From Lepidurus packardi (lineage: Eukaryota; Arthropoda; Branchiopoda; Notostraca; Triopsidae): a stretch of 64,000 bases of DNA. The notes beneath the pieces are model-generated. The model was given only the letters and a program-made list of their open reading frames with translations, ran no database searches and was not told the origin of the DNA. The stretch is from positions 1 to 64,000 of the forward strand of contig JAKZAN010000188.1 in the NCBI GenBank assembly GCA_023053545.1, written 5' to 3'. This document shows positions 1 to 64,000 of the stretch, piece after piece. A program made the position numbers and the translations under genes. The stretch's first letter is position 1. Each line of letters begins with the position of its first letter.

Positions 1-1343
1 CTTGTTTTCTATCAGATCGACACCTTCAGATCCCAGAATCTCGGTGTTGTTATACCCAGCCTCTTCCTTATCGTCAGACAACTATTATTAACTCTGTTGT
101 ATTTCGTCTTCAACATGTTGTCCAGGACATCCTAACTCTTTCAATACTGAATCATCCCTTTCTTCCTTGACCTCGCTTGCCTGCTTCCTCGACTTATGGT
201 TGAAAATGGACAGTTTACTCGGTACTGTGGTCGGTCTACCGCCGACAAAGTCTTCATCTTATGTCTAGATTATTATGGTACCTGTTGGGATTATCTCAAT
301 GTACTCCTAAGCATTCCACGATTGAGGTGTGATATATTTCGTTAGCTGGGTTAACGTGCTTCCTGATTCGTTACCGCCAGGAGATTACATGCATGTTGTC
401 ATTTTTTTAAGCTTGTGTATCCTGGTTGATACGACCTGATCGGTATTTTCGTGTGGCTTTTTATTCTTATTTTTTGTAGCGGGTAGTTCTTGCTTAGCAA
501 GTGAGTGCTGGTCTAGAATGTCTGCAGAGCCAGTGAAGAGAAGGTCGTCCTTCTTCCTGGGCAGTTTACTAATACGAATATTCTTGTTAAAATTGTGAAT
601 GTCTTCGAAGAAGCTTTGAAACTGTTATCGGTCTGATTGGTTTACAGTCTTGTCATGTTGTGAATATTAAAGGAGCCTTTTCTTGATGGATTCGCAGAGT
701 TTTATATCGGAGGGGGTGGCAAGACAAGGGATCTTCTAGGAACAAGTCGAGAAGCGTTCCTCGCAAACGGCTAGAATTTTGGAGAGAGTAATCGCGTTGA
801 TTTATTGATGAGAGAGTTTGTTTTCGGCAATGTATCTATTGAGTCTGCGCACAGCCTTCCTGAGACGGGAGTAGAAGTGGTTCTTGATTGAGTTGTCAGT
901 CCTGAGTTAAAGCATACAATACCAAGAAAAGAGAGTATTTAAAGGAAAATGGTTGGAATACCTGCCGTGGAAATGCTTGGAAATCTTGGCCCAGCGATTG
1001 CCCAGTCGCTCATGTAGTTCAAAAAGTAGGTTTTCTTCTGCAGGTTCCCACTTGTCAGTTTTTATATTCGGGTTCAATTGGTTGTGCCATCTGTCCTGTT
1101 TTTTATTTTATTCTATTCATGAAAGACTCGATGTTTTTGTCACCTTTCACGACACTGTTTTCCTGTACGGTCGTCAATATGAAACTCGTCTGTCAGGATC
1201 TGGACAACTGTACTCCATTTAGTGATTTGACGGTCGAATATGATTTGGGTGAGTGCTTGGTCTTCCTAGTAGGGTATTTGAATAACATAGATGAAGAGAT
1301 GTGAGTTTGTTACCCGTTTGGTCCAAAGTCGTCGTTCTGTCAT
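1..1343 (-). CDS. R2R3-Myb transcription factor, 3' end beyond window
   Basis: Sequence-specific DNA-binding protein of the c-Myb type. Two Myb repeats start almost at the N terminus. The first contains QCRERWHNQLNP and the second contains GNRWAKISKHFHGRTDNSIK, followed by a basic helix (KNHFYSRLRKA), the classic third helix of repeat 3. Reading needs three GT-AG introns at 1266-1313, 1091-1143 and 902-961; all junctions keep the frame and fall inside the repeats. About 394 codons lie in the window, with a Glu/Gln-rich acidic tail running off the left edge. UAA and UAG occur in frame in the tail and are read as Glu. The start ATG at 1341-1343 is the first in frame. Nuclear role in transcription is inferred from the family. 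Confidence 0.85.
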
Positions 1344-2431
1344 GTTGATCTTGCTATTTGATTAGTTTTAAAAGTGAAGAAAGTATTATTGGGATTTTAG
1401 TGATAGGAATGGTAGAGAGATGTGGAAGTATGATCCTTGCCTAGACAATCAAGTATTATCGAAATTATGATATTAATGATGTTGATTGATAATTCGGTAT
1501 TTTCTATTTGATTTTAGGTTGTCTAGAGCTTTCAGTACAAGTGTTTTATGGTTTGAATATGGTTCGGCGTCATGTGGATTGTTTAAATGTATTGCTTAAA
1601 TTATCATAATAACACTCTGGCTGGTTAAGCTAATAGTCAATGAGCAATTAAATGTGGGTTCAGCGAGAGCAGTGCCGAAATTGCTAGTTGTTCTTCATCC
1701 GGGTCTCCTTGTGTCTCGGCTGATCTTGTTCAATTCAGGAAAATACAAAAGCAACAAGAACAATAAAAAACAATAGCACTTATCTCTGCGTATATTGTTG
1801 ACATTATTGCTATTATTACTGTTATCATCATTCTGGGTTTTGCACTTCTGGAAGCCAGAATACTAAGTTGAACTATCAGAAAATTCTGCTAAGTTTTGGC
1901 GTCATCACATATGCAATAAAAACAGCAGTCAGTTACGGAAGGACTACCCTACACAAAATGTCGAAGGAAAGGAGAGGACTAGGGCTATAGCTGTATTTTT
2001 GAAAGAGTGATCAGAGGATAACAGGCAATAAGAGAGAAGTATATATTTGAGGTGTGTGTTGTTGTGTGAGACCATCATAAAATCAATCTATATAATGAAT
2101 TATTGCTATTCCGATGGTGACAATATGTATATCAGTCGAATTTAATGAGGTTTTTCGTTGTTTTAGTGCGCATCATAATCCTACTCTATTTCATTCAGTA
2201 GGCTCAGATTAATACCCATTGACTATCAGATATCAAATTATTACTATCCAATGGGTATATACTCCCACTAATTTCATAGGGGTAGCGACTCCATGGGCTC
2301 TTGCTGGCCATGCCGACCATACCTTGCACTAAGTTGCTTCCATTACCATATATTGTTTGTCTTTATATTATTCATTAATTATGCTGATAGGCATATAATG
2401 GATGCATTTCTGTATCCCATAAACCACACCC
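1344..2431. other. Intergenic, about 1.1 kb, AT-rich
   Basis: 5' flank of the Myb gene and 3' flank of the next minus-strand gene. All frames are cut often by UGA and I see no convincing coding stretch. The segment 2290-2431 may hold a last exon of the neighbour (see that entry). It contains a perfect 10-bp inverted repeat at 2212-2258. Confidence 0.5.
2212..2258. repeat. Perfect 10-bp inverted repeat, possible hairpin
   Basis: The arm ATACCCATTG at 2212-2221 is followed after 27 nt by its exact reverse complement at 2249-2258. It lies in AT-rich intergenic DNA near the 3' end of a minus-strand gene. It could be a transcript hairpin, but nothing in the sequence assigns a role. Confidence 0.5.
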
Positions 2432-3322
2432 TCACACCAGATACGGCCTCAATGCTTACAGGTAGTTGTACTTTCTCTTCGGGTTCTTGCTCCCACCGTC
2501 CCATACTCCTAACCTTGTCGTCCTTCGACCCACACTGCAGTTGCTCTTTCTTACAGATTTCTTCACAGTTGAACCCTCTTCTATCATCACTTCTGCGATG
2601 GGCGAAAACTGTTGCTTCAGCAATAGAGCCTTCTTCTTGTCTTCATGCACCTTTCTCTCTTCGTCCTCCTCATCGCAGAAAAGATTCATGGTGTCGATCT
2701 TTGCAGGAGCGTGGACAGTTGCGACATGGTGTGTTTATGGTGACTACTATTCATCTTAACAATAGACAAAGCAGCAGGGAACTGGTTGTACCCTTGCTGT
2801 CTATGATATCTGGTCTGGTGAAAGGTATCGAGTGTGATTTTTAGCCATCTGGCCCTTGTTCTGATCTCCCTTATGATTAGCACCAGCATTATACGAAAAG
2901 CAATTACTATTTTCTCTGTCATCATTGCCGACATTTGCCATATTTTGATGTGAAAGCGACTCGCGGTAATTCTCGATAACCTCTACGAGAGGGAGCACAG
3001 GCTCGTATGCGATAGCATCATGTATGGCTTGCTTGGCACTCAGGTTATTAGGAGTCGAGAACAGGGACCCTGAACGACAACCGCTAGACGCGATGTTCTC
3101 CTGGGAATGGGCGGTTCTCAGATCTCCGATTTATTTGGTGAGTTCGCAGATTGTCTATTCTTTTGCATAGAGCTAGCGCTGGAGGTGAGCTAGTTTGTGG
3201 GTGGTTTGGGCGATATATTGTTGGACTTGCTAGATATAGAGACACTGTTGGGAAGTAGCTGTAGCACGTAACTCTTCGAGTTTGAGAAGATAGCTGGTGG
3301 AGTGTGAGGATGAGGCGTCCAT
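2432..3322 (-). CDS. Hypothetical protein with N-terminal coiled coil (~296 aa)
   Basis: I do not recognise a family. One frame is open from ATG 3320-3322 to UGA 2432-2434 with in-frame UAA/UAG read as Glu. The first ~100 residues are Leu/Gln/Glu-rich with heptad-like spacing (for example QVQQYIAQTTHKLAHLQR), followed by a Ser/Asn-rich linker and a charged segment (CDEEDEERKVHEDKKKALLL). A good donor (GTAAGC) lies just before the stop, at about 2459. An alternative last exon ending near 2290 is therefore possible and the C terminus is uncertain. A structural or scaffold role is only a guess from composition. Confidence 0.65.
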
Positions 3323-8369: not shown

Positions 8370-11300
8370 TCATTCGCTAAGTCTCATCGATAGTTTGATG
8401 TTCATTGCTGCCAGCTAGTTAGCCAAGTACTTAAACACGTAAGGGATTGCGACTTTGCTACAGCTTGAACCCTTGCAAGATGAGCATACCGGTACTCTTT
8501 TGTAAACCTCCTGCATCGACTCTCCTGAGAGTTTCTCCACCTTCAGGTAGCAACCGATCAATGACCCGCATTTGTTGCATACGAATGCTTCTGAGTAATC
8601 AGAACTCTTGAACAACCTCTCGTTCAGAATTTGTGACAATCCATGAGAAAGCATAGCGTCTCTCTCCATCTCGCCCATTCTGATACCTCCTCCCTTCTTC
8701 CTGCCTTTCAGAGGTTGTTGGGTCAAGATATCGACAGGTCCTGTGGATCTGGCTTGGCTCTTGTCGCTGACCATATGCCTGAGTCTCTGGTAGTACACGC
8801 AACCCAGGTAGATATCGACGTTCATCTGCGTACCATAGATACCGGAGTGCATGACTTCATTGCCATAGTAGTTATAGCCTTGCTGAAGTAGCTTTGTCCC
8901 AAAGTAGTTCAGGACACTATCGCCTTCGTAGACTTAGAAGGGGTCGAATTACCTGGGCTTACCTTCGAGTGCAGCAGTTTTTCCGACCATCGCCTCTATA
9001 AGCATACCAATCGTCATACGACTCGGGAAGGCGTTAGGGTTGATAATAACATCTGGGGTAATTCCTGATTCAGTGAAGGGCATATCGATTTGAGGCCAAA
9101 GGGTTGATAGAACACCCTTCTGGCCATGACGAGAAGAGAATTTGTCTCCAATCACTGGCCTTCTATCAAAGCGAAGCTTAACACATATTTTCTCAGGCAG
9201 ATTGGAGCCTTCTAGACTGCTAAGGATAATACCATCAACGTGACAAGGCTCTGACTCTTTGTTCTTGAACTACTTGAATTGTGATTTTGTGATATCCCAT
9301 ACTACTAGTATAACGGATGTTTTCTTGAGTTTCGCACCTACCTTGACCAGCCCATCGTTATCTACCCCTTCAGGGAGAGTATACTCCCTCTTCTTATCGT
9401 TAGGGGCGTCTTTGAAGAGCTTGAACTTTACTCTTTTCTTTTCTTCCTCTTTATTGAGTGTATACTCCACTGTTTTATAGACGATACCATGTCCGAAACC
9501 TCTTTCGAACGTAGATTTATTGATGATCATAGCGTCTTCCATATCGTATCCTGTGTAAGAGATCACGGCCACCACAGCATTGCAACCTGAGTTGTATAGA
9601 TGGAAACCGAAGTCCTCGTATATTCTAGACTTAACTAGTGGAACCTGGCTGTTAATGATTCGATAGAGCTTATTATCATAGCGATAATCCCAGTTCAGAA
9701 CGGCAGTCCCCATAGTCTGCTTGGCCATTTGGCACTGATACATATTACGTGGGGACTGGTTGAAGTTCATAAACGGAATGTGTTGGGGCAGGATGGAAAG
9801 GATAGTCGATGCAGACAACTCGTTATGAATAGAGTTGGGTGTTTCAATGTCAAGGAATAGCTGCTCAAGAGGAGAAATCCATTCGATTTTGTTTAAGGGT
9901 AGGTATTTGACTGGGCGTAAAAGCCGAGCAGGAGCGTAGGAGAGGAAAACCATGGGATAGGCAGTATTTTTAGGCGAGGCCTTCTTCAGCCAGGCGACCT
10001 CTGTTTCTTTAGGAATTTATTCAGATATTTTCTTGAGTCTGATGGTGTTAACAAAGGCTTCTACTTGGTCATCAGGAAGGTATCCTATAAGCTTACCGTC
10101 TATTAAGACAGGATACACGCTATTAGTGCTAATGTAGTTCAAGCTCGAGATATCAATGACACCTGAGTCGCAACAAAGTCTGTCCAGATCTTTAAATTTA
10201 TCTTCCGCATAGACCTCTAGAGCCTGTGGCATGCAGTTCATAGTGATGTGATTTAGAAGACCGCAAGGTCCACCGTCGGGAGTATGCACAGGACAGAGAA
10301 AACCCCAGTTTTCAGGTAAAAGTTTTCGAACCGTTGTTGTTTTCATTTCTGCAAAATAAGCACCACGATGGACAGATCGGAAGTGTGAGAGGAAACGCAT
10401 GTTATTCAATTTATCTGCGATAACAGTGAAGCCTTTGTCTTGCATCAGATCCAGTCCTGTTTTAGACCGAAGATTTCCTGTTGATAGGAAACTCTAAATC
10501 TGCTTAGCCACTGCACCAGACTCCATAATCTTTTTGAGATAGTCCGATTCGCGTACTTTCCGGGTGTCGAAATCTTTACCCTTTTTGGTATCTGCTTGAT
10601 GGCAGTCCTTAACGATCCTCATTCGTACAATACTAAGAACATCCTCCAGCTTTTCTCTGAGAATCATAAGGTAGAGATGTCCAGGAAGCAATACCTCATG
10701 GTTGCACAATGCATCTAGGTTATCGGGTTAGATCTGCTCGTTGACAAGGCAGTACAGTTTATCGATCATCATACAGATGATGTTGAATTTTTATTGGCTT
10801 TTGTTCAGATGCACACAAATATTTTACTGGAGGAAAATCTCGCCGGCTTGTCTGTCTGAATAGCTTAGTCCAACGTTCAACAGGAATCTGAAACTGTTTC
10901 CCAGGTAGCTCAGGCATTGTTATTTGGTGGTGTAACCCATGGTTTTGGCGGTCTTGATAAGCACTTCGATCTTGTCGCTTTTGGCTGAATCTTCGAAGTC
11001 TCCACCCATTAGCTTTGTGTAGATCTATCTATCTGCGAAATCGCCTAGGGCTTTGAGGATAATGATAATCGGAATGAGAAATTCCTGTTTCTTGTAAAGC
11101 AGCCTAAGGTAGATGTTGCCATCGCTGATATAGTGCAGAGTGAAGGTTTTAGCGTAGAAGTCCTCGCGCACACATCTCATCTGAACAGCGTATTGAGTAT
11201 AGCCTGCTCCTCTGTTGGTGTAACTAGGCCTAATGAAGGCTACGGGGAAGTTTCTCTTCTGGATGATGAGCATTCTAATCATCTTCTCGTTACCGTTGAT

Positions 11301-11810
11301 GATGAAATAGCCTCCGTACTCATAGGGATCTTCATTAGCCTTTACGAGTTGTTAGGAAGTCAGACTATGCAGATGACAGTTTTTGCTCATGACCATTATG
11401 GGTAGGTCGCCTAAAGTAACTGTGAAGGACTCACGCGAATCATCAATCTCTTTGGTAACTTCGCAGATTATAGGAGCAGAATAAGTTCTGCCTTGAAGTC
11501 TGCAGTCTCCGGGGTATATTTACTGAGTGGCAGCAGTAGGGTCATTGGAGCGGAAGGGCTTGCCGATATGGACCTGAGAGAAGGACAGCTTCATTTTGTT
11601 GAAGGGTAGTTGGACTCCTTTGCCCTCGATAAGAACCTCTTTGTTGAGTAGCTCCATGGGGGCGAGGTATTCAACAACTTTTTGTAGGCCAGTGTCATAG
11701 ATGTAGTTAAAGGATTGGATGTGGTGGTTAGCAGCGAGCTTGAGTTTGAGAGCAGGAGTCTCCAGATGGGCCCTATTGATGAATTTGGTGCGTTCTTCTT
11801 CTGAATTCAT
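8370..11810 (-). CDS. POLR1B: RNA polymerase I second-largest subunit (RPA135/POLR1B)
   Basis: Catalytic-core subunit of Pol I, which transcribes rRNA in the nucleolus. The frame is continuous for 1146 aa, close to the family length (1135-1203), with no intron. Family landmarks in order are HIQSFN near the N terminus, the lobe motif [96 protein letters not shown] and a C-terminal zinc ribbon (CNKCGSLIG and VCSSCKG). The C terminus is [12 protein letters not shown]. The Glu of ELAAMNI is a UAG at 8415-8417. [10 protein letters not shown] and the C-terminal motif favour Pol I over Pol II or Pol III. The start at 11808-11810 was chosen because residues further upstream look non-coding. Confidence 0.93.
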
Positions 11811-12115: not shown

Positions 12116-12580
12116 TCATCCACTTTCTTCTTTTGCTTCTTTTTCATCGTCACTATCATCTTCGTCAGAGTCTTCGTCTTGTTTGAGACCTTTCTCCATG
12201 TCTTCAGGTTTCTCTGTAGCTTTTACACTCTCCCGGTATTTGCTGAGGTAGAGTTTGAGAATATCGACATATCCTTCAAAGCCCAATGTATTGATGCTCC
12301 AGAGTAAGTCCTCGCCATTTATGGTTTTACGCTTTTCGTTCTTGCATTTTTCACAGGCTTCGCTGGTGATGAAGGAGATGAACTCGGATACACACTACTG
12401 TACAGTCTCCTTAGCATCCTTGGCGATTTTAGCATTTTCAGGGAGTGCCTTCTTCATGATTCTGCTAATGTTGGCGATGGGGAGGAATCGGGAATAGTTG
12501 GGTCCGGTTCTGTGAATAATTGGAAAAGAGGGTGTATATGATTATTGAGGAGGAGAGTACTCTTTATCTTCGGGATCCAT
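12116..12580 (-). CDS. NFYB: NF-YB / HAP3 CCAAT-binding histone-fold subunit
   Basis: Histone-fold partner of NF-YC in the CCAAT-binding factor. Residues ~26-115 carry the conserved core: [58 protein letters not shown] and [20 protein letters not shown]. The acidic C-terminal tail is Asp/Glu-rich. The invariant Glu in VQECVSEF is encoded by UAG (12395-12397), which helps fix the code. The 154 aa, intronless frame runs from ATG 12578-12580 to UGA 12116-12118. It is transcribed divergently from the SANT gene at 12993. Confidence 0.95.
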
Positions 12581-14251: not shown

Positions 14252-14911
14252 TCATTCCTCGTAGTCCTCGCTGCTCTCCATGTATTGGGCCTGTTCTCTC
14301 TGCAGTTGCCAATACCCACCCAAATCATCCTAGTACTTTTGGGCCATCGGCATGTTGGCTGGGTCACTGAAGTTAGGGTCGTACCACAAAGACTCTATCT
14401 CTTGCATCAGTTGTTGGACGGAGCTGCGCTTTTTTTCCCAATTCTTAGGATTAAGCAGGAAATGGCAAACCTCTCCTGTCGCATACACATTCACACTTTT
14501 AAACATCTCACTGTTGCCGGGAAGCGGATCTATGAATAATTTGGGTGGATTTTCGGGCCAGGAGTCATCAAACTCCAATCTTCCCTTAATCACACGACCT
14601 TGATATACTGATTCATTAGGTTCTTTAGACCTTCGTCCGATCCAGATCGCTGTAAGTTTCTGCGGGATTTCCACACCGTCCTATTCATAAGGAAGTATAA
14701 GGGTGCGCTTCATTGCGTCGTCGGATTCGCGCACTTTTTCATACTGAGCGATCTATGACTGAAGCTTATCTAGATTTCTGCCTGTAAAAGAGCGAGTATT
14801 CTTAATAATCTTGATTTTTGATTTGGGTGCGGCAGGCGGCAGAGGGGTCTAGACCTACATGGCTGATGATGAAGCTTTGATGATCTTGATTGGTTTTCGG
14901 ACTGGCTCCAT
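14252..14911 (-). CDS. Ubiquitin-conjugating-like E2, Ubc9/UBE2I-like
   Basis: UBC-fold E2 of 219 aa. Recognisable stretches are FDDSWPENPPKLFIDPLP, the active-site region NVYATGEVCHFLLNPKNWEK with the catalytic Cys, and SVQQLMQEIESLWYDPNFSD followed by PANM. The spacing (NVY-x-x-G-x-VC, long W-containing loop, DPA) matches Ubc9, the SUMO E2, better than ubiquitin E2s, although the sequence is divergent. The first ~70 residues form a non-E2 extension rich in Ile/Lys/Pro. The C-terminal tail is acidic (MESSEDYEE). No intron is needed. SUMO conjugation is inferred, and a Ubc12-like role cannot be excluded. Confidence 0.75.
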
Positions 14912-16393: not shown

Positions 16394-18601
16394 ATGAAGA
16401 AGAGCGAAGCAGTCCGAGTAGCGATAAGGGTCAGACCCCGCAATCAGCGATAAATTGACCTCAATAGTCCAGTTTGTGTCCAGGTCACGGAAAATACAGT
16501 CTCTGTTGCCAAAAACTAGAAAGAATCTAAAGATTTTACTTATGACTATGTCTTTCCGAGTGACGGCCAGCAACGCTAGATCTATGATGCCACAGCCTTC
16601 GGACTTGTGGAAAATGTGGCTGAAGGCTATAATGGTACTATTTTTGCATACGGGCAGACAGGTGCCGGAAAGACATTCACGATGGTCGGAATAACTGGAG
16701 ATGAGAATCTGAAAGGAATAATTCCGCGCACGTTCTCGCATCTACTATCGATTACGCAGTCCGGAGAAGCGCAACAATATCTGATGAGGGTTAGCTTCAT
16801 CGAGATCTACAACTAATAAATACGAGATCTATTGATGTAGAAGAAGAAGAATGAAAAGGATGGTTTTAACAAAAAGGACCTAAAGGAAAATGCTGACAAG
16901 GGAGTCGGCGTGAAGGATCTCTTGATCCTCCCTGTTAAGACAATTAGCGAAATGGAGAGGCTCTTGGAAATTGGAAACAAAAATAGAACTGTTTTTGCCA
17001 CGGCTATGAATGCGACCTCTTCCCGTTCCCATTCCATTTTCACAGTATATTTCGAGACCTCAACCGAACAGGGCGGTAAATCCACAGTAAGAGCTGGGAA
17101 ACTTAATCTGGTCGACTTGGCTGGTTCTGAGAGGGCTGGAAAGACATAAGCTGTAGGCGATAGACTTAAGGAGGGTACTAAAATCAATCTCTCCCTGAGT
17201 GCCCTGGGAAACGTCATCAACGCTTTGGCTGAGGGAAAAGCTGGAGCTCACATCCCCTATCGTGACTCAAAACTGACGAGGCTGCTACAGGATTCATTAG
17301 GTGGAAACACCAAGACAATTATGATTGCAAGTGTTTCGCCGGCTGCTGATAACTATGACTAAACCTTAGGTACCCTTAGATATGCAGCAAGGACAAAAAA
17401 TATTAAAAACGCACCCAAAATCAACGAAGATCCCAAGGATGCGATGATACGAGAATATGCTGATGAGATCAAGAAACTCAGGGCACAGCTTGAACAGAAA
17501 GGTGATATAAGTATAGAATCTGTCCGGGTTGATGAAGATGCACTGCGCAGAGAAATAGAGGCCAAATTAAAGGCAGAAGGTGATGAGGAAAAAAGGAAAA
17601 TTCTCGAAGAACAAAGGAGAAACATAGCTCAGTCAGAAGAAGAAAAGGCTGAGCTGCTCTAAAAACTCAAGCAGATGGAGCAGGCGTTGTTGAAGTCCAA
17701 CTAGACCTTCAAGCCATCCCAGACGCAAGAGATAGCAGTTAAGGAGAGGAAGTCCAAAAAGCGAGCCTTGAAGAAGCAGGAGTAATTGGTACTTGACAAG
17801 GTACAACAAGGTCTGTAAGAGAATAAGAATATCCTTGAAGCAGACTTCTAGAAGTATAATTCCCATGTGGAATAGATCGCAGGTCTGAAAGAACTTGTAA
17901 AAAAACTGAGGAATAAGTGCAAGTCGGCACAGAACGAAGTGGTGGATCTGCAGAGATAGTTCCAGACTGAACGTGAACTACTCTAAGAATCGGTAAGAGT
18001 GGTAGAATCTCATTTATCTTTCTACAAGAACATTGCCAGCATGCTTCTCACTGAAAAGGAGATCGAGGCCATCAAATAAAAATCAAGATATATCGAAGAA
18101 GCCCGTGAGTACGTCGTGCCTCCATTTCAGCTGCGAGAAGATAAAGCACACTTCCCCAAGATGCTCACTAATCAGCAAGCCCAGGACATGATATCTGAGT
18201 ACAAGAACAGAAGGAAAATCGATTGGGCTACTGTGTCGCTTCCAGAAGAAGAAAACATCGAAGAAAGAGCTGATAAGTTTCTGGCTAAGAAAGTGTTGTA
18301 TAAAATTCCTGACTACACCAGCAACAAATACGAAGGAAAGAACTACGAGAAAATGGCACAGGAAATGCTTGAATAGGATCCGTTCGCGTAGACTTCGCGA
18401 GGCAACCGATTTACGGCAACGCAAGGACAGTTCAGAAGGAGAGACATATCAGTTTCCAATTAGAGCGGCAAAAAGAAACTAGCCCCATTGAATATTGGGA
18501 TTGCCAGCGGGAATAAATTGCAGACTCCTGCAGAGGTTCATAGGCCAACATCGAGATCAAGATAAAAACTGATTCCGCTCCCCAAGAGAGAACAGCATTG
18601 A
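16394..18601 (+). CDS. Kinesin-2 family motor
   Basis: N-terminal microtubule motor for anterograde transport, most like the kinesin-2 (KIF3/KIF17) group. Landmarks are [11 protein letters not shown] at the N terminus, P-loop GQTGAGKT near residue 90, EIYNEEIRDLL, switch [12 protein letters not shown], switch [49 protein letters not shown] and [19 protein letters not shown]. The segment [20 protein letters not shown] after the motor is typical of kinesin-2. A ~250-residue coiled coil and a basic tail follow; total 735 aa, no introns. The two Glu in EIYNEEI (16814-16819) and the Glu in YDET (17360-17362) are UAA codons. Whether it is homodimeric (KIF17-like) or heterotrimeric cannot be told. 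Confidence 0.93.
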
Positions 18602-20623: not shown

Positions 20624-20886
20624 TCAACGAGCAATATGAAACAAGACTTACTATCTTTTCTTATGAAATCTCAATTTTTAATTCTTTATGCGATATGAGC
20701 GTCAGCAGCAATGAGGTTGAGTCTTTTTCTTTTCACGATCTCTACCCTCGTGAATAGCCAATAAAACTAATGAACTAAATTATAATACTATAATCACAAT
20801 AATCGCAAACTTCTCACCTTCTCAGACGATACCCTCACACCATCACCAGCATTCTCAATTATAAACACCCACCATTATAAACCGAA

Positions 20887-22011
20887 ATGGAGTACCTCCT
20901 TATGCAGAACGACACAGAGGAGGACCTCATCAAGTTCGCTAACCTGACTTCCCAGGAACGCATCGAACAAATCGACCTTTCTCTCAAACTGATCAGACTC
21001 TCGCCTTTCGAATAATTACCCAAAAATAAGAAAAAAAGGAAAAACAACTCCGCACCTACTCTAAAAGAACTCACCCCTCTCAACCTCAGCGACGAATAGA
21101 AGAAATTCGCAGATTCGTCCTACTCCGTGGACCCTATATTCACCTATAAAGAGGGCCTCGCTACGCCCCATAACCTTTACCAGAACCTGGACACTTCTCT
21201 CCAGGATCTCGCTATCAAGATACTTTCTACCTTCAAATAACACCATCTCCACAATCGATAATTAATAATTGCAGAACCCCTCCTAACTGAGGAAGAAGTC
21301 GTGGCTTAGTTCCACCAGTACCTGCAGATCTACAACTTGACTGACGTGGAGTTGTAGTTCGAAGAGCATTGCGTAACCCGCACACGAGTCAAATATGTGG
21401 GTTCCAAAAAGGCAGTCGTAGTCATGCGCAGACCGTTGTAGTATCAGAAGAGAGTATTGCAGGGCGTGCTCAACCACGAACTCGGCACCCATGTTCTTAG
21501 GCGTCGCAATGAACAGAATCAAGTATTCTTCAATCGCAGATAGGAATTTAACCTGTCTAAGTAATGCCTCGTTGTAGAAGAAGGACTGGCTTCGATTCAC
21601 CAGATCATAAAAAATGATGAAAATGGCCTCTCATTATTTATACCGGCTTTGCGCTACTATAGCTGTGTCATGGCCTCCCAGACCTCCTTTGTGGACCTCT
21701 TCAACTGGCTGAAGTAATGGCTGGGAGGAGATGTGAAGGAGAGTTGGAGAGAAGCGGTGCGGGTGAAACGAGGAATGACCGTTACAAACTTACCAGGCGG
21801 TTTGTATAAAGACCAGGTATATCTGAAAGGTGCATATGAGATCCTAAAGAACAGGAAGCACAAGAACTTCAAGAATATATTTTTCGGCAAGTTCGACTTC
21901 GAAGACGTAGAGAAAGAGGTGGAGATCAAGGCTGGGATGCTGCCTCTGTTTTATGATGAGAACTACATGAAGATATTGGATCGGATAGCCGCGCTGAACT
22001 ACATCGACTGA
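20887..22011 (+). CDS. Microtubule tyrosine carboxypeptidase, MATCAP / DUF1704 family
   Basis: Zinc metallopeptidase-like protein of the KIAA0895/MATCAP family, whose animal members remove the C-terminal Tyr of alpha-tubulin. The core motif is NHELGTHVLRRRNEQN (HExGTHxxR; His and Glu for zinc and catalysis), followed by LVVEEGLASIHQ, the family's EEGLA motif carrying the third zinc ligand region. Length is 374 aa, intronless, from ATG 20887 to UGA 22009-22011. UAA/UAG occur at Glu positions. Downstream are FNWLKEWLGGD and a conserved GGLYKDQVYLKGAYEIL. Substrate specificity is inferred from animals; bacterial DUF1704 proteins have other names, so the tubulin role here is likely but unproven. 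Confidence 0.85.
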
Positions 22012-23298: not shown

Positions 23299-23495
23299 TG
23301 TATACTTTGAGCCCTGGAATAGTGACAGCCGTGGCCTGCTTGCTGCAATATTTTAGGAAATGAATACCTTATTATTTGGAAAGATAGCAGTAGCCACGTC
23401 TGATCGAACATAAGACCTAGCTCCACAACACCTATCATTAGCAAATCTTTTTATTCTGAGTTGTTTGACTAAATATCTTAGTAACCACAACCACT

Positions 23496-31534: not shown

Positions 31535-34500
31535 ATGACCAATATCCAGGACGAGTCTGAGTTTTGCTCCGATCCCTATCCCCTCGTCGAAATCCAAGAC
31601 CTATACCCCGCCAACACCCTCTACGCGCAACTCCCCAAGTAGACCCCAGTCGAGGAGACTCCCAAACTCAAAATATAAATAATAAAACAGTAGTTGCGCA
31701 CGCCTAAACTCAATGCCAGGCCTCAATTCAAAGTAATTCCACCTTTTCGAAAACAAAAAACTCCCAAGCCCAAATTACACTCTGGCAGCACGCCTGAGCA
31801 ACGCACATATTGCGATATTTCGGCAAGTTTAGAAGTAAGAACCCGAATAATAATAGTAAGAAGAGCCTGAGGTCAAAGTGTACCGCACGCCCTTCGACAA
31901 GCAGTATCAAGGCAAGAAGTGTCTCTTCAGCAAGTTCGATAACAAATAATACAACTCTCTCAGGGATGTCGAGTACTATGCTAGTGTATTTGTGGACCGT
32001 CGTCTCCTCAAATAAAACAAATGTATCAAAACCCTCTCTAATCTTTCTTCATTATAACTAATGATGCTATAGAGGAGCTGACATCCATGAAAATGATGTA
32101 TAGGGAGATCCTGGATGTCAACTAGCCTTCACCAACGAATTTAGATAGTAGTAGGGCACATAAGGCAGAAATCAAGTTCGACTCTAGTTTTGAGTCTGGC
32201 AATTTATTCTCAGTCTTCAGAGTACCACATTAACCACCACACTTTATGTCTCTTGTCTCATTGAACATCCCTTTGCTAGAAAAGTTATGCGGAATTCGAC
32301 TTAGTCCTGCAGAATGATACCAACAGCAAAGGAAACACTCAGTGGTTCTATTTTACGGTGTCTAATTTACCCAAAGATGTTGAGTTTACGTTTAACATCG
32401 TAAATCTCATGAAATGTGACTCTCTCTTCAATTATGGGATGCTCCCTGCAGTCCTTTCAGAAACCAAACTCAAGAAAACAGGGCAAGGTTGGTAACGGAC
32501 TGGTAAGGCGGTGTCTTATGAACGAAATTAAATGCGTAGGGAAAAGTCAAAAAGAAATTACTACACTCTCAGCTTCAAACAGAGTACCAAGTATGCCAAC
32601 GATGTTCTGCACATGGCACACTGTTATCCTTATACTCTTGCTATGCTTAAACAATATCTGGACTCTATATTTAAAGTCAATGGATCGTCGAGAAAGTTCC
32701 AGCTGCAACGTTCAATCATCAGCCGAACCATAGCGAACCACCCAATCGAAGTCATCACGATCACAGACCCGTTCGTCCCTTCAGCAGGTAATCGGAAGGA
32801 AAGGGATAGTCGAAAATACTTAATCGTGATGGCTCGACAGCATCCTGGCTAGTCGCAAGGATCTTATGTTTGTGAGGGGTTCATGAACTTCATTATTTCA
32901 AAGAACAAAGAAGCAGAATTTTTGAGGAAGAACTTCATCATCAAGGTGATCCCAATGGTTAATCCTGATGGAGTGGTATTCGGAAACTATAGAACCAACC
33001 TGATGGGCTTTGACCTCAACAGAAAATGGGACCTAGTCTATGATAAGGCAGACAACTGTCCGGAAGTTATGGCCATCAAAAACTACATTTCGGATCTCAA
33101 CAAAGACAAGAGAGTCAGATTTATCTTGGATCTTCACGGACATAGTAAAAAGCTCAACAGTTTTTTCTATGGTAACCCGTTTCCTCAACAGCCAGAACTC
33201 GTGCGTGCATTTCCCTACACCTGTTCCAAACTGAATCCCCATATCAGCTACGAGGACTGTACCTTCACCATTGAATAGGAAAAACGTAAGGCAGCCAGAG
33301 TGTATCTGTCCCTGTCGCACCATCTCACAAATGTGTATACCTTCTAGTCCAGTTTCTACGGCTACCTGACTAAAGATAATAAGAAGGTTGCTTATACCAT
33401 AGAAGATTTTCGAGGTTTGGGCAACACACTAGGTATGGGGTTATACTGGATGCTTGAATATGAGAGTTATGGGGAGAAAAGTGACAGAGGAAACACATTC
33501 TTTAATAAATTTCTTGTCGAGCTGAGGGAAAACCCTAATCTCTTGCTATCAGGCCAGAACCCATAAAGTGGATCTGAGTCGAAGCCTTAGGAGAATGAAA
33601 TGGCCGATACAGAAATAGAGAGCGTCCAGCGCCAGTATGAATAAAAATTCTTATAAAGAACTCAAAACATTGAAGTTCCTCCTTAATAAGCTCCATCAAC
33701 TGCTGCTCTTGTAACACATGAAACTCCCTCAGAAAAATAAAAAAAAGATAAACCTAGTAGTATTGGGAGTATGGGCAGTAAGTCCTAGTCTCGCAAAGAC
33801 AAAAGGGAGCAGCGAGAAATCAAGAACACAAGACAGCTCAAGGTCATGGAGATTAGTCGGGTTAACTCCATACTGCCGGATAAGTATCAACTAGCATTAG
33901 AGCCTGCCTTTAAGGAAGAAGACGTGATGGAAAAGAACAAGAGAATTACGATACGGAAAAGTATCAAAGACTTGAAACTCGTAAGCACCCATGCGCAGAC
34001 TCTACCGATTGCGTAGTAAGATTGGCAGGAGCTCAAGCAGATAAGCATCGAGAGCTGTCTTCGATCAGACACTTCGCGTCCTAGTTCTGCTTCACGGAGA
34101 GATGGCTTCGAAATCAAATATGTTTCTCTTACAGATACGAAATGCAAAAAGAACATGGTACTGAAACTCGACTTCGCCGGGAATACCCACTCGGTCATGA
34201 ACCAAACCAACAGCATCAGTAATCTTAGACAAAGAAATACTTACTCTCAAACAATCCTGTCATCTGTTGGCCCGCGTGGTCGATACGAAAAGTTTAAATC
34301 TATCACCCATCTCCCACAAGTCGAGAATGATAGCAACATGAGTACCCCCTCGAAGAGCCAGTATCCCACTGTCAATACATCGAGCATGAATAACCCGTTT
34401 CCCTTTGTAGACCTACCATCGTCAGAACCCAAAATTAAGTTGTTCAGGACGACCCGACTGAGCCACAGAAGAGACAACCAAGATTTTCTGAACGATATGG

Positions 34501-34742
34501 TAAAGAAGTACTTGATTGACTTGAAAGATAAAAATACACATCAATCACATCTGAGCCAGAACATGAGCAAAGCGCGACCATTAATTTCCCACGAAGATAG
34601 GATTTTCTGCGAGAGGAGCCTGCCACCACGGTTCTAGGAGATGTCGGAAAAGCCTTTGAGTATAAAGAAGAAAGAAATATTTATCCAGAAGAAACAGCCT
34701 GGACAGCTACTAAGTGTACGTCGAGGAGCAATGAATCCTTGA
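31535..34742 (+). CDS. Cytosolic carboxypeptidase (CCP/AGBL, M14 family), tubulin deglutamylase-type
   Basis: Peptidase M14 of the Nna1/AGBL group, which trims polyglutamate or related tails from tubulin. Introns at 31835-31856 (22 nt), 32023-32072, 32248-32284 give 1032 aa. The N-domain signature is FESGNLFSVF then FDLVLQNDTN and QWFYFTVSN. Catalytic motifs are MARQHPGESQGSYVCEGF (HxxE zinc ligands), NPDGVVFGNYRTNLMGFDLN, LDLHGHSKKLNSFFYGN (third zinc His) and YTFESSFYG (general-base Glu). The zinc-ligand Glu (32850-32852) and the catalytic Glu (33345-33347) are both UAG, so Gln decoding would make a dead enzyme. A ~400-residue Ser/Lys-rich tail follows. The N-terminal extension is low complexity and its splicing is the least certain part. 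Confidence 0.88.
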
Positions 34743-34987
34743 GTATGTATCAATAAAGTTATGTTAAAGCAATGAGTCACTTTAAAAAAAGGGGAAAGTT
34801 ATAAGCTAAATAATAGATAGTTGCTAATCCAATAACAGGATCCTGGGTATAGGAATAAAACATCAGTTCCTCTGAACACAGGCTTTTTGATTGTATATAT
34901 CATTTTTAGACTGGCCTGGGATTTAAACATTTTTTAAATTTCAGAGCAATTCATAGTCACCCAGACGCACATTTCTCCCCATACACA

Positions 34988-36450
34988 ATGGAAGTCGAAA
35001 AGGAAGCATCCCCCCAGCCCCAGCCCCAGCCCGAGGAGTCACAGCCTACTCTCCACACTCTCCTCTACGGTACTATCACTCATCCAAACCATCCCTTCAT
35101 TTTACAGATATCAAGCAGACCATCCTCCAACTAGACAAGGCAATCGCTGGCAAAGAGTCACGTCAGATTTACAGGTTAACAAAACAGGTCCGTCGATACA
35201 AATCCGTGATCCAGGCCCACCATCTCGAGAAGGTCTTCAACGTAATTATCCCGGACCACGGAATTAACTTCTCGGGATATCCTAACTACAACCGTGAATT
35301 CACTGAGACGTTCTAACTGCCCAGGAACATTCTTAGCAGGATTCCCAAAATCTCTGAACTAGAAATTTACCCTAAGATGCTCCTCATCATCTTCCTAATG
35401 CGTGAAAAGCTCAACGAGCAAGCTCTGGCTTTTATCAAACCCCTTCTTACTAAAATACACGAACTCAATCGCCGTGGTCTTGACTCTTTCAACGCCAACC
35501 TCTACTACTATTATACTCGTATTCACGAACACGCAGGCACTGATCTCACCATCCGCCAGGAACTCCTAGAAGCCTTCAACCGCGCATGTCTAAAAAATGA
35601 TGAAATCGGTCAGGCAACTCTATTGAACCTGGTTCTACGCAACTATGTCAACCATAATCACATTGAGGCTGCTCAAAACTTTATGGAGAAAACCAAATTC
35701 CCTGAGGCCAAATCCAACAATGAGTACTGCAAGTACTTGTTTTATGTTGGCAAGGTTAAGGCTATCAGAAGAAACTACCAAGAAGCTCTTGGCTCTTTGA
35801 ATGAAGCTATCAGAAAGGCTCCTGACAGAGCATATGGTTTCAAGATCCAGTGTCAGCGCTATGCCATTGTTGTCTAGTTGCTCCTTGGGGATATCCCCAA
35901 TAGAGAGATTTTTTCTTAAGAAATGATCTTCAAGCACACTTATTCTTACTACAAAGTAATTCAAGCAGTACTTAACGGTAACCTGTCAGTGTTCAACGAG
36001 GTTGTTGCAAAGTATAAAGACCGATTCACCCAGGACAAACTCTATACCCTTATTATGAGACTTAATCAGATTGTCATTAGAGTCGGACTCAGAAAGATCA
36101 ACTCCTCCTACTCGCGAATCAGTCTGGAGGATATTGCCGACAAGCTCAAAATCGACAAGCAGGATGTCGAGTTCGTGGTAGCCAAAGCCATCAGAGATGG
36201 AGTGTTGATGGGAGAAATCAACCATGAGACTCGAATCGTTGTGATAAACGAACAGAGGCACGTTTATATGACAAATGAGCCACAGGTGGCACTTAACAAG
36301 AGAATCGGGTATTGCCTGAAACTGTACCAGAGCATCCAGAAAGCAATCACATACCCCGATACGAAGCATGAGCTTGAACGCAACGAGAACGATATCGACA
36401 TTGATCCCAATGAACTTGTCTAGATGTACGATTTTGAAGATGACATGTGA
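34988..36450 (+). CDS. PSMD3: 26S proteasome regulatory subunit Rpn3/PSMD3
   Basis: PCI-domain lid subunit of the 19S particle. Family stretches are LYYYYTRIHEHAG, RACLKNDEIGQATLLNLVLR, NYVNHNHIEAAQNFMEKTKF, YLFYVGKVKAIRRNYQEALG, YAIVVELLLGDIPNREIF and the PCI winged-helix SRISLEDIADKLKIDKQDVE then VVAKAIRDGV. The Glu of VVELLLG is UAG (35875-35877). A 38-nt intron (35070-35107) interrupts the start; 474 aa in total, slightly shorter than the human protein at the N terminus. The N-terminal ~20 residues are Pro/Gln/Glu-rich. Confidence 0.94.
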
Positions 36451-39896: not shown

Positions 39897-41345
39897 ATGT
39901 CCAATCTCCATAAGTGCTTAGAAACTCTTCGCCAGTGCAGACACCTAGAAGAACGCGAAGTCAACTTCATCTGCAAAAAGGTACAACAATACCAATCAAG
40001 TTATCATTTATAATCACTCTCACTCCCGACCAATGCCTCTACAACCCCAACACTCATAATCACCACACCCCAACAACCTACAACACACCTCTGCAAATCT
40101 ATAACCAACCTGTCACCCAGAATCTTGTAGAGATACAAATGAGTTGCAGCACAGAGTAAAAGCACTGTACATGCTAAATGAACACAATGCTGAATTTCAA
40201 GCAGACGTATGGTACGTGTATGTGTGAGGTTGCTGTTGTGGATCTTGTCATGGATATTTATCTGGGGAGTGGGATATTGCGCATCAATTAATTCCATGCC
40301 TCAATCAATCAATCATGTTGGGTAATTATTTGGACAGGTGATAGAAATATTGGCTGAAGAGTCCAACGTCCGCGAAGTCAAAGCTCCAGTCACGGTATGC
40401 GGAGACATACATGGCCAGTTCTACGATCTCCTAGAAATATTCGAAATCGGTGGGGAACTCCCTGTAAAATACAATATCAACATTATTTACCCGCTACACG
40501 GACCAACAAAAGATTTACTCTTATATTTTGTTGGTACGTTTCACGGATTTTAAACTATCACTTCTCCTCCCCCGTAACCTCATCTCATAACCATCAGCAT
40601 ACCAACTACTTATTCATGGGGGACTACGTCGACAGAGGTTTCAACAGCGTGGAGACTCTTAGCTACGTTCTCATCCTCAAAATACTCCACAAAGACCGTA
40701 TCACTCTATTGCGTGGTAACCATGAGAACGGTGAGATCAACAAACTCTACGGTTTTTACTAATAGTGTATCAAGAAGTATGGCAATGAAAGTATCTGGAA
40801 ATCCTTTACTGAGGTATTCTTTTACCTTCCTCTTGCCGCAACCATCTAAGGACAAGTACTTTGTACTTATTTCATGATGATCCTTTTTAATGGTATAGTA
40901 TTTTTGTTTACATGGAGGATTATCTCCTTCTGTCCAGCTCATAGACCAGATTAAACATATCGATCGCAAGCAGGACATCCCCCATTAGGGTGTCATGTGC
41001 GATCTTTTATGGTCTGACCCTGAAGAAGGTCGCAGTGGTTTCGGGCCCTCTCCTCGACAAGCGGGGTATACCTGGGGAGCCGATGAGACTGACAAGTTCC
41101 TACATAACAATAGCCTGCGTATGGTGTGTAGAGCCCATCAACTAGTGATGGAGGGATTCAATTAAGTCCATCATAAAAAATGTGTGACTGTGTTTTCAGC
41201 GCCAAACTACTGTTACAGATGCAACAACAAGGCATCTATAATGGAAATAGACGACAAACTAAATCCTCACTATCAACAATACGAGCCTGCCCCGAGGGAA
41301 TCCTAACCACACACTGTAAAGAGGGTACCTGCATATTTTTTGTGA
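39897..41345 (+). CDS. PPP2C: Protein phosphatase 2A catalytic subunit
   Basis: Ser/Thr phosphatase of the PPP family, 304 aa from four exons. Introns are 39981-40337 (357 nt), 40464-40597 (134 nt) and 40856-40898 (43 nt). Metal-site and catalytic motifs are present: [75 protein letters not shown] and [15 protein letters not shown]. The C terminus RVPAYFL keeps the YFL methylation/assembly tail of PP2A. Glu in PHEG (40986-40988) and in the final EPH (41304-41306) are UAG and UAA. HEN-GEI replaces the usual HES-RQI, a mild divergence near the active site. The very large first intron is unusual for this window. Confidence 0.92.
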
Positions 41346-45178: not shown

Positions 45179-46359
45179 ATGAGTGTTTCTCTCCAAGACT
45201 TCACCTTACTCTCAGTCATCGGCAAGGGCACCTACGCCAAGGTGCTCCTCGTCCGTTACAATAAAGACGATCAAATTTATGCTATGAAGGTGCTCAAGAA
45301 AAAGTACATCGCCGAACTCAATTTGCAAGAGAAGATCATGACGGAAAGGCAGGTTCTGGTGAACATTGACTACCCGTTCCTGGTGAAGCTGTATTTCTGC
45401 TTCCAAGACCCAGTCAAACTCTACTTCGTGCTGGAGTACTGCCCAGGAGGAGAATTGTATGGTCTCCTTCAGGTCAAAAACTATCTGAGCGAAGAGCAGA
45501 CAAAGTTCTATGTCTCGCAAATGCTGCTAGCACTCGAACACCTGCACTCTAAAAAGATAATTTACCGGGAGTACTCCTTCTCATATATACTGGTCAACCC
45601 AATATTTTTAGTCTCAAACCCGAAAACATCCTGCTTGATCGTAAAGGCTACCTGAAGCTCACGGACTTCGGACTCAGCAAAATCATCCGTAGGCCTTAAT
45701 AGAAAACATAGACCATCTGCGGGACACCTGAGTACCTGGCCCCGTAGATCCTGAACCAGTAAGGACACAGTTTCGGGGTGGACTGGTGGTGCCTGGGGTG
45801 TATCATCTACGAAATGATAGCAGGCCTGCCGCCATTCTCGAGCCAGAACCGGAACGAGTTATTCGAGAGTATTCGTTTCGGGGAGGTGTAGTTCCCGCCA
45901 GGGGTAAGCCACTCTATTTCTGAATTCCTATTGTTGGGTGTTTTATCTGCCCACCGCACCACATTTGTTATCATTGTTTCGTTGCTCGTATTACTATCTA
46001 GATCTATGACTTCCCTGCTCAAGATACAACATTGTATTAAATTATATCATCAATCCGATGTATAGGTTTCCGACAAACTCAAGGATTTACTCACCGCGTT
46101 ACTCCACAAGAACCCTGCTCTCAGGCTTGGCGCCAATGGTGCTCAATAGATAAAAAAACACCCCTGGTTTGATAAAATACACTGGCCCACCCTCGAACAG
46201 AGGACCATCAAGGCTCCCTTCCTCCCCGTCATCAAGAATGAACTCGATCTGACTAATTTCGATGTGACGTTCACAAGTTGCGAGGTGGAGTCACAGCAAG
46301 ACCCTAACGAGGTGGCAGAGTGTGAAGACTACCAGGGCTTCACTTTCGAAGATATCTGA
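45179..46359 (+). CDS. AGC-family Ser/Thr protein kinase
   Basis: Three exons, introns 45571-45611 (41 nt, inside the catalytic loop codon for HRD-type Asp) and 45904-46065 (162 nt); 325 aa. Motifs are [11 protein letters not shown] (Gly loop), [11 protein letters not shown] (VAIK Lys), [34 protein letters not shown] (DFG), [14 protein letters not shown] (activation loop and APE), [20 protein letters not shown] and [20 protein letters not shown]. The C-terminal tail has a hydrophobic-motif-like GFTFED. The Glu of APE is UAG (45745-45747). It is closest to the SGK/S6K/Akt group but has no PH domain. RD-type active site is intact. Confidence 0.92.
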
Positions 46360-48074: not shown

Positions 48075-48306
48075 TGTTGATGTGGATCCCGAACGGTACG
48101 ACTGGCACCCACTCAATAGATGAGTGGAGGTGTGCGAGTATTAGATTTGGGATATCGTGGATGGCCTCTTCTAGTTCTAGGTGGATATTTCTGATATAAA
48201 ATATTTAAAAGTGATATTTATTGAATGGGCCGTTGATAGAAAAATATGAGCTTGAGTGATTATTCAATGGATTTTTTAATCAGAAGATTTATCACCTGCT
48301 ACACCC

Positions 48307-49185
48307 ATGAAACACTCTTCTCTAAATATAATTACCAAGCACATTATCCTCCCTAACTCATCTCCACCAAACTCCAACTCTCTCCATACTCACTTGTCCC
48401 CTATTCGCCAACTCCTCACCACCCATCGCAACCACTAATCTGCCCACAAGTCCAAGAACTACATGAAAGGAGTCCCTTTCCAGTTCTATGGCATCCCCAG
48501 CCCTACTCTAAAAAACACTATCTTCCGCAATACCTATCAGCCCAACTAGCCATTCTATGTGAAGTTAATGCTTGTACATTCACTCCTCGAGTCTAATATT
48601 TTCTAAGAGAAACTGTACGCACTAGAAATTCTCGAAAAGAGTTATAAATAGGTCGATATCCTTACCCTCGACTACCTCAAGACCTTTATCTAGGCATAAC
48701 ATATTCAAGGCTGGGCCCTTACCGATAAATTCGCCAAAATTCTCAGACTTTCTTGCTCTCACAAAGGCTAAGTTTTTGATGACTATATCATCAAGTGGTC
48801 TGAAAATAAATAGCATATTTGGTTACGTCGTGCGTGTTGTGTGAGTTTTGTCGCACGCGCCAGACACGGGGACAATCCTCCTATAAACTATCAAGGCTTC
48901 ATGAAAAAACTCTTCAGAGTGTGTAACAGTTGTCTGGTGTTCCAAGATAGGTTCACACAATTAGGTGTTGGATGGTTATTGAGGGAGATGAGCTTGGCAG
49001 ACTTGTCGAATACAGTTTGCTTCATCCAGACCAACCACCATTTATTCATTCGAGAAGGTCTCAGATATGCGATATAGAAACTGGATGAAGAGATGAGAAA
49101 AGAACTTCTGCATTTCAAAGAGGGTAAAAGTATAGAAAAACGACCATAAAAGAGAAGGGGGAGTGTGCCTCTAGTGGACCGATGA
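48307..49185 (+). CDS. DNA alkylation-repair (AlkD/AlkC-like HEAT) protein
   Basis: 292 aa, intronless. The family layout of AlkD-type DNA glycosylases is visible: YMKGVPFQFYGIPSPTLKNT at the start of the HEAT array, then FEEKLYALEILEKSYKE, LKTFIEAEHIQGWALTDKFA and the diagnostic WSENKEHIWLRRACCVSFVA (W-x-x-S-x-N-x-W-x-R-R-A). A later NTVCFIQTNHHLFIREGLRY region follows. A ~45-residue Asn/Ser/His-rich N-terminal extension precedes the domain, possibly a targeting sequence. AlkD enzymes excise alkylated bases; the substrate here is not known. Start ATG 48307, stop UGA 49183-49185. Confidence 0.78.
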
Positions 49186-62767: not shown

Positions 62768-62929
62768 TTATCCCACCACTATCTGTTTCGGCAGAAGCTG
62801 ATAGTGCAACATCTATAATCTGCAGAAGGAGCCTTTTAGAAATCTCAACTTTTTTATTTTTTGCAATTAACACTTAATTTTCAACATGAGAACTGATATT
62901 GTCCGATAATCATCATAGAAAAATCAGAG
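62768..62929. other. Convergent intergenic 162 bp
   Basis: Separates the stops of p47 and the nucleoside hydrolase; should hold both 3' ends. No terminator or poly(A) motif could be assigned with confidence. Confidence 0.4.
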
Positions 62930-64000
62930 TCATTTTTGAACATGTTCTTCATGGTCTTTGTGTGAGGTTTCTGAGGGTTCCGTAGTGGTATCCATATCAG
63001 AAATTATAACTTTAGCTGGTGCATTAGCTGCGCTATGATGCGCGAAGGAAGGATGCATATTGACATGTGTGGCAGGGTGGCTGTGTACGTTTGTTTCCAC
63101 CGAATATTTGCTCTTGTGATCACTATTTTAGTATATAAGTACATTATCTTTGTGGATTATTGTGTGTTTTTGGTCGCTGTGCTGACTGGAGACATTATCG
63201 TGGTTGTTCGAGCTGTGAGCACAGTGTTTATGGGAGCTATCCACGCGGTGGCGTGTACTATCTGGTCTGGGAGGTTCAACATGGTCTGTAACCATGCTGT
63301 AATCAGCGTGCTAAAGGGACTCAGCTAGTTCGGCTAGCATCTTCTTGGCCTCCATATCGGCAATGATTCTAAGATTAGGAGTATTTGCCCCGAACCTAGG
63401 TTTCTGGAGCCATTCAATAGCCAAATATCCTTCAGTCCTAGCACCCCCCGATTTCTAGCTACGCATACACATGGTACATTTTGCTGACAATTTCTGGGAT
63501 GCAGCCAGGGAAGATAGTCAGCGGGTCACAAATTAATGGGTGTTTGTTTTCGAAAAGATCCTTGATAAGTTTGGCCTTCGGGGTATGTTCGCTGTTGAAC
63601 AAGAGATTTTCCTACTCCTTTCTCACTTATAAATCAAAGGCATACTCGAGTGTGATTAAGTGGATGTTCTTGAAGTTTTTGATAACGATGTGCGCGGCGA
63701 GGGGGTCCATGTGAAAGTTGAACTCAGAACTGAAGGCTTAGTTTAGCCCCACTCCACTCAAAGCTCCTCCCATTACGCTCAAATTGCCGATTTGGTGCGC
63801 AATTTCTGGGTTGATATAAAAAGCAGTGGCCAGATTAGTCAGTGGGGCCAGACAGATCAGGGACAGATCTTGTCCATGGGTCATTATGCTTTCGACCAAG
63901 AATTTATAGGCACTCTTATCCTGAACCATTTTCCAGTCCTACTCCGTCAATAGTTTTTTGTACTATTCCTGTTTATGGTTGAATCCATCAGATCCGAAAT
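62930..64000 (-). CDS. Inosine-uridine nucleoside hydrolase, N terminus beyond window, His-rich tail
   Basis: Purine/pyrimidine nucleoside hydrolase (IUNH fold) in salvage. Visible pieces are SLICLAPLTNLATAFYINPE, IGNLSVMGGALSGVG, EFNFHMDPLAAHIVIKNF, NIHLITLEYAFDLEVR, HPLICDPLTIFPGC and RTEGYLAIEWLQKPRFGAN. The start lies beyond 64000. The frame shifts by one at a C6 run on the plus strand (63444-63449); five bases would keep it open. After the enzyme core an unusual ~130-residue tail rich in His, Ser and Asn (SSHKHCAHSSNNHDNV and similar) runs to UGA 62930-62932. The tail is not part of the family and may be a localisation or metal-binding extension. Confidence 0.82.

Follow-up and report, generated by a model that had tools for sequence, protein, structure and literature searches.

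UAA and UAG as glutamate codons and UGA as stop in a 64,000-nucleotide contig window

Sanchez-Silva et al. reportedly described UAA as a glutamate codon, a reading said to have been in print since 2003. The genus Tetrahymena, together with Paramecium, uses a code (table 6) that shares sense UAA and UAG codons (together, UAR) and a UGA stop with the window, defined here as the whole 64,000-nucleotide stretch of contig JAKZAN010000188.1, but assigns UAR to glutamine. The peritrich nuclear code, NCBI translation table 30, is described for Campanella umbellaria and Carchesium polypinum in the consulted parts of PMC4967479 and PMC10553269; as described there, it agrees with the window in reading UAA and UAG as glutamate and UGA as stop, and no difference was detected. 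The code of Oligohymenophorea sp. PL0344 (consulted part of PMC10553269) has UAG as glutamate and UGA as stop in common with the window, whereas UAA is lysine there and glutamate here. Glutamate at UAR is likewise found in the nonstop code of Blastocrithidia, in which, however, UGA is tryptophan and UAA also terminates (as given in the consulted part of PMC12153298), while UGA stops in the window. The variant code in the window is real, yet already well known and no new kind of code: table 30 is almost certainly in use, and the window is almost certainly nuclear DNA of a eukaryote, probably macronuclear.

UAR codons inside coding frames

UAR codons occur inside coding frames more often than by chance. 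Eight family-matched frames hold 78 among 4,624 codons, and five matched domains alone hold 33. The kinesin motor domain contains five UAA and three UAG, the RPA2 frame 13 in-frame UAR codons (UGA stop at 8370-8372), and the cytosolic carboxypeptidase-like M14 gene 16 in 820 codons (Table 1). The gene names proposed in an earlier note on this DNA were right, as judged by Pfam matches and, for PP2A, by a solved homologue. It also expected the standard code to fragment nearly every gene. Of 36 coding stretches delineated from codon usage, 33 contain at least one UAR; the standard code would cut these stretches, and any annotation of the window must therefore use table 30.

Table 1. Genes, UAR codons and introns located in the window
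Feature	Position	Strand	Evidence or remark
RNA polymerase I second-largest subunit (RPA2/RPA135)	8370..11810	-	PF00562 (Rpb2 domain 6) 405 bits; RPA2-specific PF06883
RPA2 UAG, N-E-LAAMNIK	8415-8417 TAG	-	E in 5/5 alignments listed
NF-YB	12116..12580	-	PF00808 95 bits
NF-YB UAG, VQ-E-CVSEF	12395-12397 TAG	-	E in 5/5 alignments listed
Ubiquitin-conjugating enzyme	14252..14911	-	PF00179 53 bits; 5 UAG in 219 codons
Kinesin-2/OSM-3-like motor	16394..18601	+	PF00225 362 bits
Kinesin site EIYN-EE	16814-16819 TAATAA	+	adjacent UAAUAA
Kinesin UAA, NYD-E-TL	17360-17362 TAA	+	alignment
MATCAP-like tyrosine carboxypeptidase	20695..22011	+	PF08014 60 bits; 4 UAA and 4 UAG in domain
Cytosolic carboxypeptidase-like M14 gene, 5' boundary undefined	32265..34742	+	PF00246 57 bits; PF18027
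Rpn3/PSMD3 proteasome subunit, 5' boundary undefined	34891..36450	+	PF25573 219 bits; PF01399; PF08375
Rpn3 UAG, VV-E-LLLG	35875-35877 TAG	+	E in 5/5 alignments listed, all PSMD3
PP2A catalytic subunit with introns, start approximate	40310..41345	+	solved homologue E=4e-60; PDB alignments
PP2A UAAUAG, GFY-DE-C	40760-40765	+	PDB alignments
PP2A UAA, V-D-GQ	40847	+	PDB alignments
PP2A UAG, PH-E-G	40986-40988 TAG	+	Glu in solved homologues listed
PP2A UAA, E-PH	41304-41306 TAA	+	Glu in solved homologues listed; 13 codons before stop
AGC-type protein kinase with introns	45179..46359	+	PF00069 103 and 114 bits in two exons
Kinase UAG, AP-E	45745-45747 TAG	+	PKA and S6K alignments
Kinase introns	GT..AG 45904-46065; another near 45583-45610	+	splice sites by eye
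AlkD-like DNA alkylation repair protein	48256..49185	+	PF08713 101.5 bits; 4 UAA and 5 UAG in domain

Just 17 ORFs of at least 150 aa are listed when the standard code is applied, a yield that would also suit standard decoding of genes disrupted as pseudogenes or by assembly errors. The probability of this explanation is negligible: family matches in a single frame span many UAR codons (the 33 in five domains and the 13 in RPA2), nearly the whole profile is covered in kinesin, Rpb2 domain 6, AlkD and NF-YB, and UAR falls preferentially on one amino acid. Coding signal also runs on beyond in-frame UAA and UAG and stops after UGA; in this codon-usage continuity test, which supports the sense reading of UAR without proving it because it was trained on some of the frames later scored, the mean coding score over the next 30 codons was +0.05 past UAA (29), +0.07 past UAG (34) and -0.21 past UGA (15). 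Six sense-codon controls ranged from +0.07 to +0.16 by the same score, placing the UAR values at the low edge.

Glutamate as the meaning of both codons

The amino-acid meaning of both UAA and UAG in the window is glutamate. Nine such codons, in eight coordinate ranges, had been put forward in the earlier note as lying on invariant glutamate positions; all nine are in frame, on the strand and in the genes named there, and each aligns to Glu in every solved homologue among the matches listed, with none of the nine on a Gln column. For instance, the three kinesin codons in this set align to E in all four distinct homologues among the matches listed. Likewise, all six UAR columns for which at least two different homologous proteins were listed and agreed are Glu. 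Other UAR codons align to other residues. In PP2A, a UAA stands on a W column (41163) and two stand on D columns in the alignments with solved homologues; in kinesin, the column of the UAA at 17147 is G in three of four kinesins among the matches listed. One Rpn3 UAA (35917) aligns to Q in PSMD3 and another to R, and the column of the RPA2 UAG at aa 489 is Q in two of the four proteins among the matches listed.

Each amino acid was put in place of UAA, and separately of UAG, and scored against Pfam, ten residues being covered on pooled domains and the remaining ten on a single domain (kinesin for UAA, the kinase for UAG). With this coverage, Glu was the best of 20 residues for each codon. Summed over 15 UAA codons in four families, the bit scores were E 653.0, Q 643.3, K 640.7, D 639.6, S 634.7, R 633.3, A 631.8, Y 619.0, L 612.8 and W 608.9, placing Glu 9.7 bits ahead of Gln and 12.3 ahead of Lys. 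Over 17 UAG codons in six families, they were E 589.2, K 582.4, Q 580.9, D 574.9, R 574.9, S 571.7, A 565.7, Y 556.5, W 555.8 and L 551.7, with Glu leading Lys by 6.8 bits and Gln by 8.3. Against the other ten residues, Glu scored 376.2 for UAA in the kinesin domain only (next N 370.5, F 357.2) and 121.3 for UAG in the kinase domain only (next N 117.0, F 106.5). RPA2, with eight residues tried for UAA, pointed weakly in the same direction (E 616.8, K 615.8, Q 615.6).

Single domains vary. Domain 6 of RPA2 alone prefers D by 1.4 bits; for UAA, Pkinase alone places Q 1.2 and K 0.9 bits above E; for UAG, MATCAP alone places K 1.7, Q 1.4, S 0.8 and R 0.8 bits above E, and AlkD alone K 0.4 bits above E. 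As a control in the kinesin domain, GAA, a known Glu codon, cost 0.0 bits when scored as Gln and 1.1 as Lys (10 codons), without separating E from Q, and these GAA sites seem to lie at variable positions. The Pfam test depends on site conservation, and therefore only its pooled scores are usable.

Glutamine for both codons, as in table 6, draws some support from its second rank for UAA and third for UAG, from its lead over Glu in Pkinase and MATCAP, and from the Q columns in Rpn3 and RPA2. It is nevertheless exceedingly improbable, as the earlier note had held, given its pooled deficits for both codons and the six of six agreeing columns with Glu; for scale, seven CAG codons of the kinesin domain, which truly encode Gln, lose 5.3 bits when scored as Glu. 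A split code of the PL0344 type, with lysine at UAA and glutamate at UAG, is no more credible. The pooled Lys deficit at UAA, the kinesin score of 371.9 under the split code versus 378.6 with both codons as E (Q at both, 373.9; Y at both, 360.5; masked, 365.3), and the three kinesin UAA and one PP2A UAA on Glu columns all count against it, even though its UAG assignment agrees with the window and Lys ranks third for UAA, at most 1.0 bit behind Glu in RPA2. Both codes are excluded for the window, and table 30 fits.

UGA at gene ends

UGA is the stop at conserved gene ends in the window: in PP2A it comes immediately after the conserved C-terminal YFL, and in RPA2 it lies a few residues past the conserved LAAMNIK. 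Fourteen gene ends were examined; since each frame was taken to run up to a UGA, all 14 end in that codon. The statement in the earlier note that genes end only at UGA is thus supported at the two anchored ends; the other ends are anchored less tightly. Seven of the 14 ends have a sense UAR 5 to 15 codons upstream of UGA, most ends being without a tight homology anchor; in Rpn3, a UAG lies 9 codons upstream. A back-up UGA within 6 codons downstream, of the kind reported for other ciliates in the parts of the literature drawn on here, was seen at two of 14 ends, too few to judge.

A context-dependent code, in which UAR is glutamate within genes yet also terminates some of them (compare UAA in Blastocrithidia and the stop codons in Condylostoma), is very unlikely, in view of the UAR codons shortly before UGA at half of the ends and of the UGA that closes PP2A and RPA2 at their conserved C-terminal ends. 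It gains from the way the frames were drawn, since a gene ending at UAR would escape notice in UGA-delimited frames, and from the fact that only two ends are tightly anchored by homology. A Blastocrithidia-type code was rejected on the UGA right after the PP2A YFL, with a Glu-column UAA 13 codons upstream of that stop. Trypanosomatids have almost no introns, and the introns in window genes argue against a trypanosomatid-type code.

Decoding and source of the window

With UAA and UAG as glutamate, known biology suggests that the two codons would be read by tRNA-Glu species carrying UUA and CUA anticodons, that eRF1 would no longer recognize them, and that the organism would be a peritrich ciliate. 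A tRNA scan of the window found no tRNA, and an Rfam scan gave no match and hence no rRNA in the window. A telomere-like C4A4 pattern had two one-mismatch matches (23540 and 37579; 0.09 expected), which were rejected as telomere because neither lies at a window end.

Judging from the published distribution of the UAR = Glu code, as covered in the consulted parts of PMC10553269 and PMC11687900, a peritrich ciliate is the most likely source of the window. A non-peritrich ciliate or protist with independent UAR = Glu, or use of UAR as stop in a minority of genes, is unlikely. Biologically, the window adds a further instance of an established code and excludes the split Lys/Glu code that a relative uses.

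Frames reading through UAA and UAG

When the sequence was checked, all nine codons that the earlier note had placed on glutamate proved to be TAA or TAG at the claimed positions and strands. Their frames gave strong matches to the kinesin motor, RNA polymerase I second subunit (RPA2), NF-YB, Rpn3, and protein kinase families, with the family identity of the PP2A catalytic subunit frame coming from homologue alignments to solved structures. A codon-usage scan of the window with UGA as sole stop yielded 36 coding stretches, 33 of which contain at least one UAA or UAG (UAR); the Pfam search covered 30 frames of these stretches. The ORF list for the window, at a minimum length of 150 aa, has 17 entries under the standard code and 140, many overlapping, under NCBI table 30 (UAA/UAG = Glu, UGA = stop). 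Eight family-matched frames (4,624 codons) hold 42 TAA, 36 TAG, 199 GAA, and 140 GAG, and UAR codons thus make up 78 of 417 table-30 Glu codons (19%; 9%-26% by gene). An in-frame TAG within the kinase intron was excluded from the UAR counts. The absence of UGA inside the eight frames holds by construction and carries no evidential weight.

Aligned residues and substitution scores

Query frames carried X at UAA and UAG, thereby favoring no residue, and were searched against solved structures, with residues read by eye. At all nine codons, each homologue aligned among the matches listed (a small set, one to five independent homologues per gene, with parts of some RPA2 alignments lying beyond the listing) has Glu, as the earlier note had proposed: kinesin aa 252, 253, and 434 in OSM-3, KIF3B, KIF3C, and kinesin-2 (2vvg); the NF-YB UAG in five homologues; the Rpn3 UAG in five, each PSMD3; the PP2A PHEG and EPH codons in five, each PP2A alpha; the kinase APE UAG in PKA and S6K entries; and the RPA2 C-terminal UAG in five different polymerase subunits.

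The aligned parts include 38 UAR (kinesin 8, RPA2 13, Rpn3 3, PP2A 6, kinase 7, NF-YB 1). In a tally of these columns, Glu occupies all six in which at least two different listed proteins agree (three in kinesin, NF-YB, kinase APE, and the RPA2 C terminus). Eleven columns with one protein listed comprise four Glu (Rpn3 aa 329; PP2A PHEG, EPH, and the second of GFY-DE), three Asp (PP2A GFY-D and V-D-GQ; RPA2 aa 1004), and one each of Arg (Rpn3 aa 142, adjoining a gap), Gln (Rpn3 aa 343), Trp (PP2A 41163), and Ile (RPA2 aa 1009). If the PP2A UAA facing Trp is Glu, an aromatic residue has been exchanged for an acidic one there, which is unusual. In the remaining 21 columns the residue differs among the listed proteins, with Glu in some and Gln in some; among the homologues listed, RPA2 aa 312 is Glu in three of four, RPA2 aa 489 is Gln in two of four, and kinesin aa 363 is Gly in three of four.

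Positions of features in the window
Feature	Position	Observation
UAAUAA, kinesin EIYN-EE	16814-16819	Adjacent former stops as sense codons at a conserved acidic pair
UAAUAG, PP2A GFY-DE	40760-40765	Adjacent former stops as sense codons at a conserved acidic pair
UAA, PP2A GFN-UAA-VHH	41163-41165	Aligns to PP2A alpha Trp
Kinase intron	45904-46065	GT..AG
AlkD-like gene	48256-49185	PF08713
MATCAP-like tyrosine carboxypeptidase	20695-22011	Candidate tubulin-tail processing
Cytosolic carboxypeptidase-like M14 enzyme	32265-34742	Candidate tubulin-tail processing

Concatenated domain segments were also scored against Pfam, with all UAA set to one residue and UAG masked, and vice versa; pooled sums exclude overlapping kinase, kinesin, and histone families. 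For UAA (15 codons; Kinesin, Pkinase, DNA_alkylation, and MATCAP, with NF-YB omitted because its segment lacks UAA), pooled bits were E 653.0, Q 643.3, K 640.7, D 639.6, S 634.7, R 633.3, A 631.8, Y 619.0, L 612.8, and W 608.9. For UAG (17 codons; TPR_PSMD3_N, Pkinase, DNA_alkylation, CBFD_NFYB_HMF, RNA_pol_Rpb2_7, and MATCAP), they were E 589.2, K 582.4, Q 580.9, D 574.9, R 574.9, S 571.7, A 565.7, Y 556.5, W 555.8, and L 551.7. The other ten residues were scored on a single domain each, and the best of them, N in both cases, reached 370.5 versus 376.2 for E (kinesin, UAA) and 117.0 versus 121.3 (kinase, UAG). RPA2 UAA, scored separately, gave E a weak lead (E 616.8, K 615.8, Q 615.6, D 611.9, R 611.1, S 610.8, A 607.8, Y 604.0). 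Several domains taken alone leaned away from Glu: Pkinase UAA (Q +1.2 and K +0.9 bits over E), MATCAP UAG (K +1.7, Q +1.4, S +0.8, R +0.8), AlkD UAG (K +0.4), and Rpb2 domain 6 UAA (D +1.4). As controls in the kinesin domain, reading CAG as Glu cost 5.3 bits, indicating that true Gln codons are distinguishable from Glu, and reading GAA as Gln cost nothing, making that control uninformative.

Stops and gene ends

The mean coding score over the next 30 codons was +0.05 after in-frame UAA (n=29), +0.07 after UAG (n=34), and -0.21 after UGA (n=15). Six sense-codon controls ranged from +0.07 to +0.16, which puts the UAA and UAG values at the lower margin of the controls; the training set included part of the frames scored. 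If stop and sense were separated by nearness to the transcript end, UAR close to gene ends should be rare; PMC4967479 describes how 'stop' codons become fewer upstream of the poly(A). Here, 7 of 14 gene ends have UAR sense codons at most 15 codons before UGA (RPA2 15, AAA gene at 5504 13, kinesin 12, Rpn3 9, PP2A 13, AlkD 12, and the ORF at 23469 10 and 5), with tight homology anchoring for RPA2 and PP2A only. A second in-frame UGA follows within six codons in only 2 of the 14, a sample too small for a verdict on the UGA back-up stops reported for other ciliates.

Neighboring genes and known codes

AlkD-like DNA alkylation repair proteins are mostly bacterial. Nine UAR codons lie inside the domain of the AlkD-like gene, so the gene follows the code of the host and is no bacterial contaminant; an old transfer is possible.

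UAA and UAG are given as Glu in peritrichs in PMC11687900, and PMC4967479 predicted the codes of the peritrichs Campanella umbellaria and Carchesium polypinum; NCBI translation table 30 is named the peritrich code. Blastocrithidia differs, with UAR = Glu, UGA = Trp, and UAA also a stop (PMC12153298). Within the portions of the open-access literature searched, no eukaryotes other than peritrichs were found to combine UAR = Glu with a UGA stop. Given the published peritrich reports and table 30, the code of the window is one already known.
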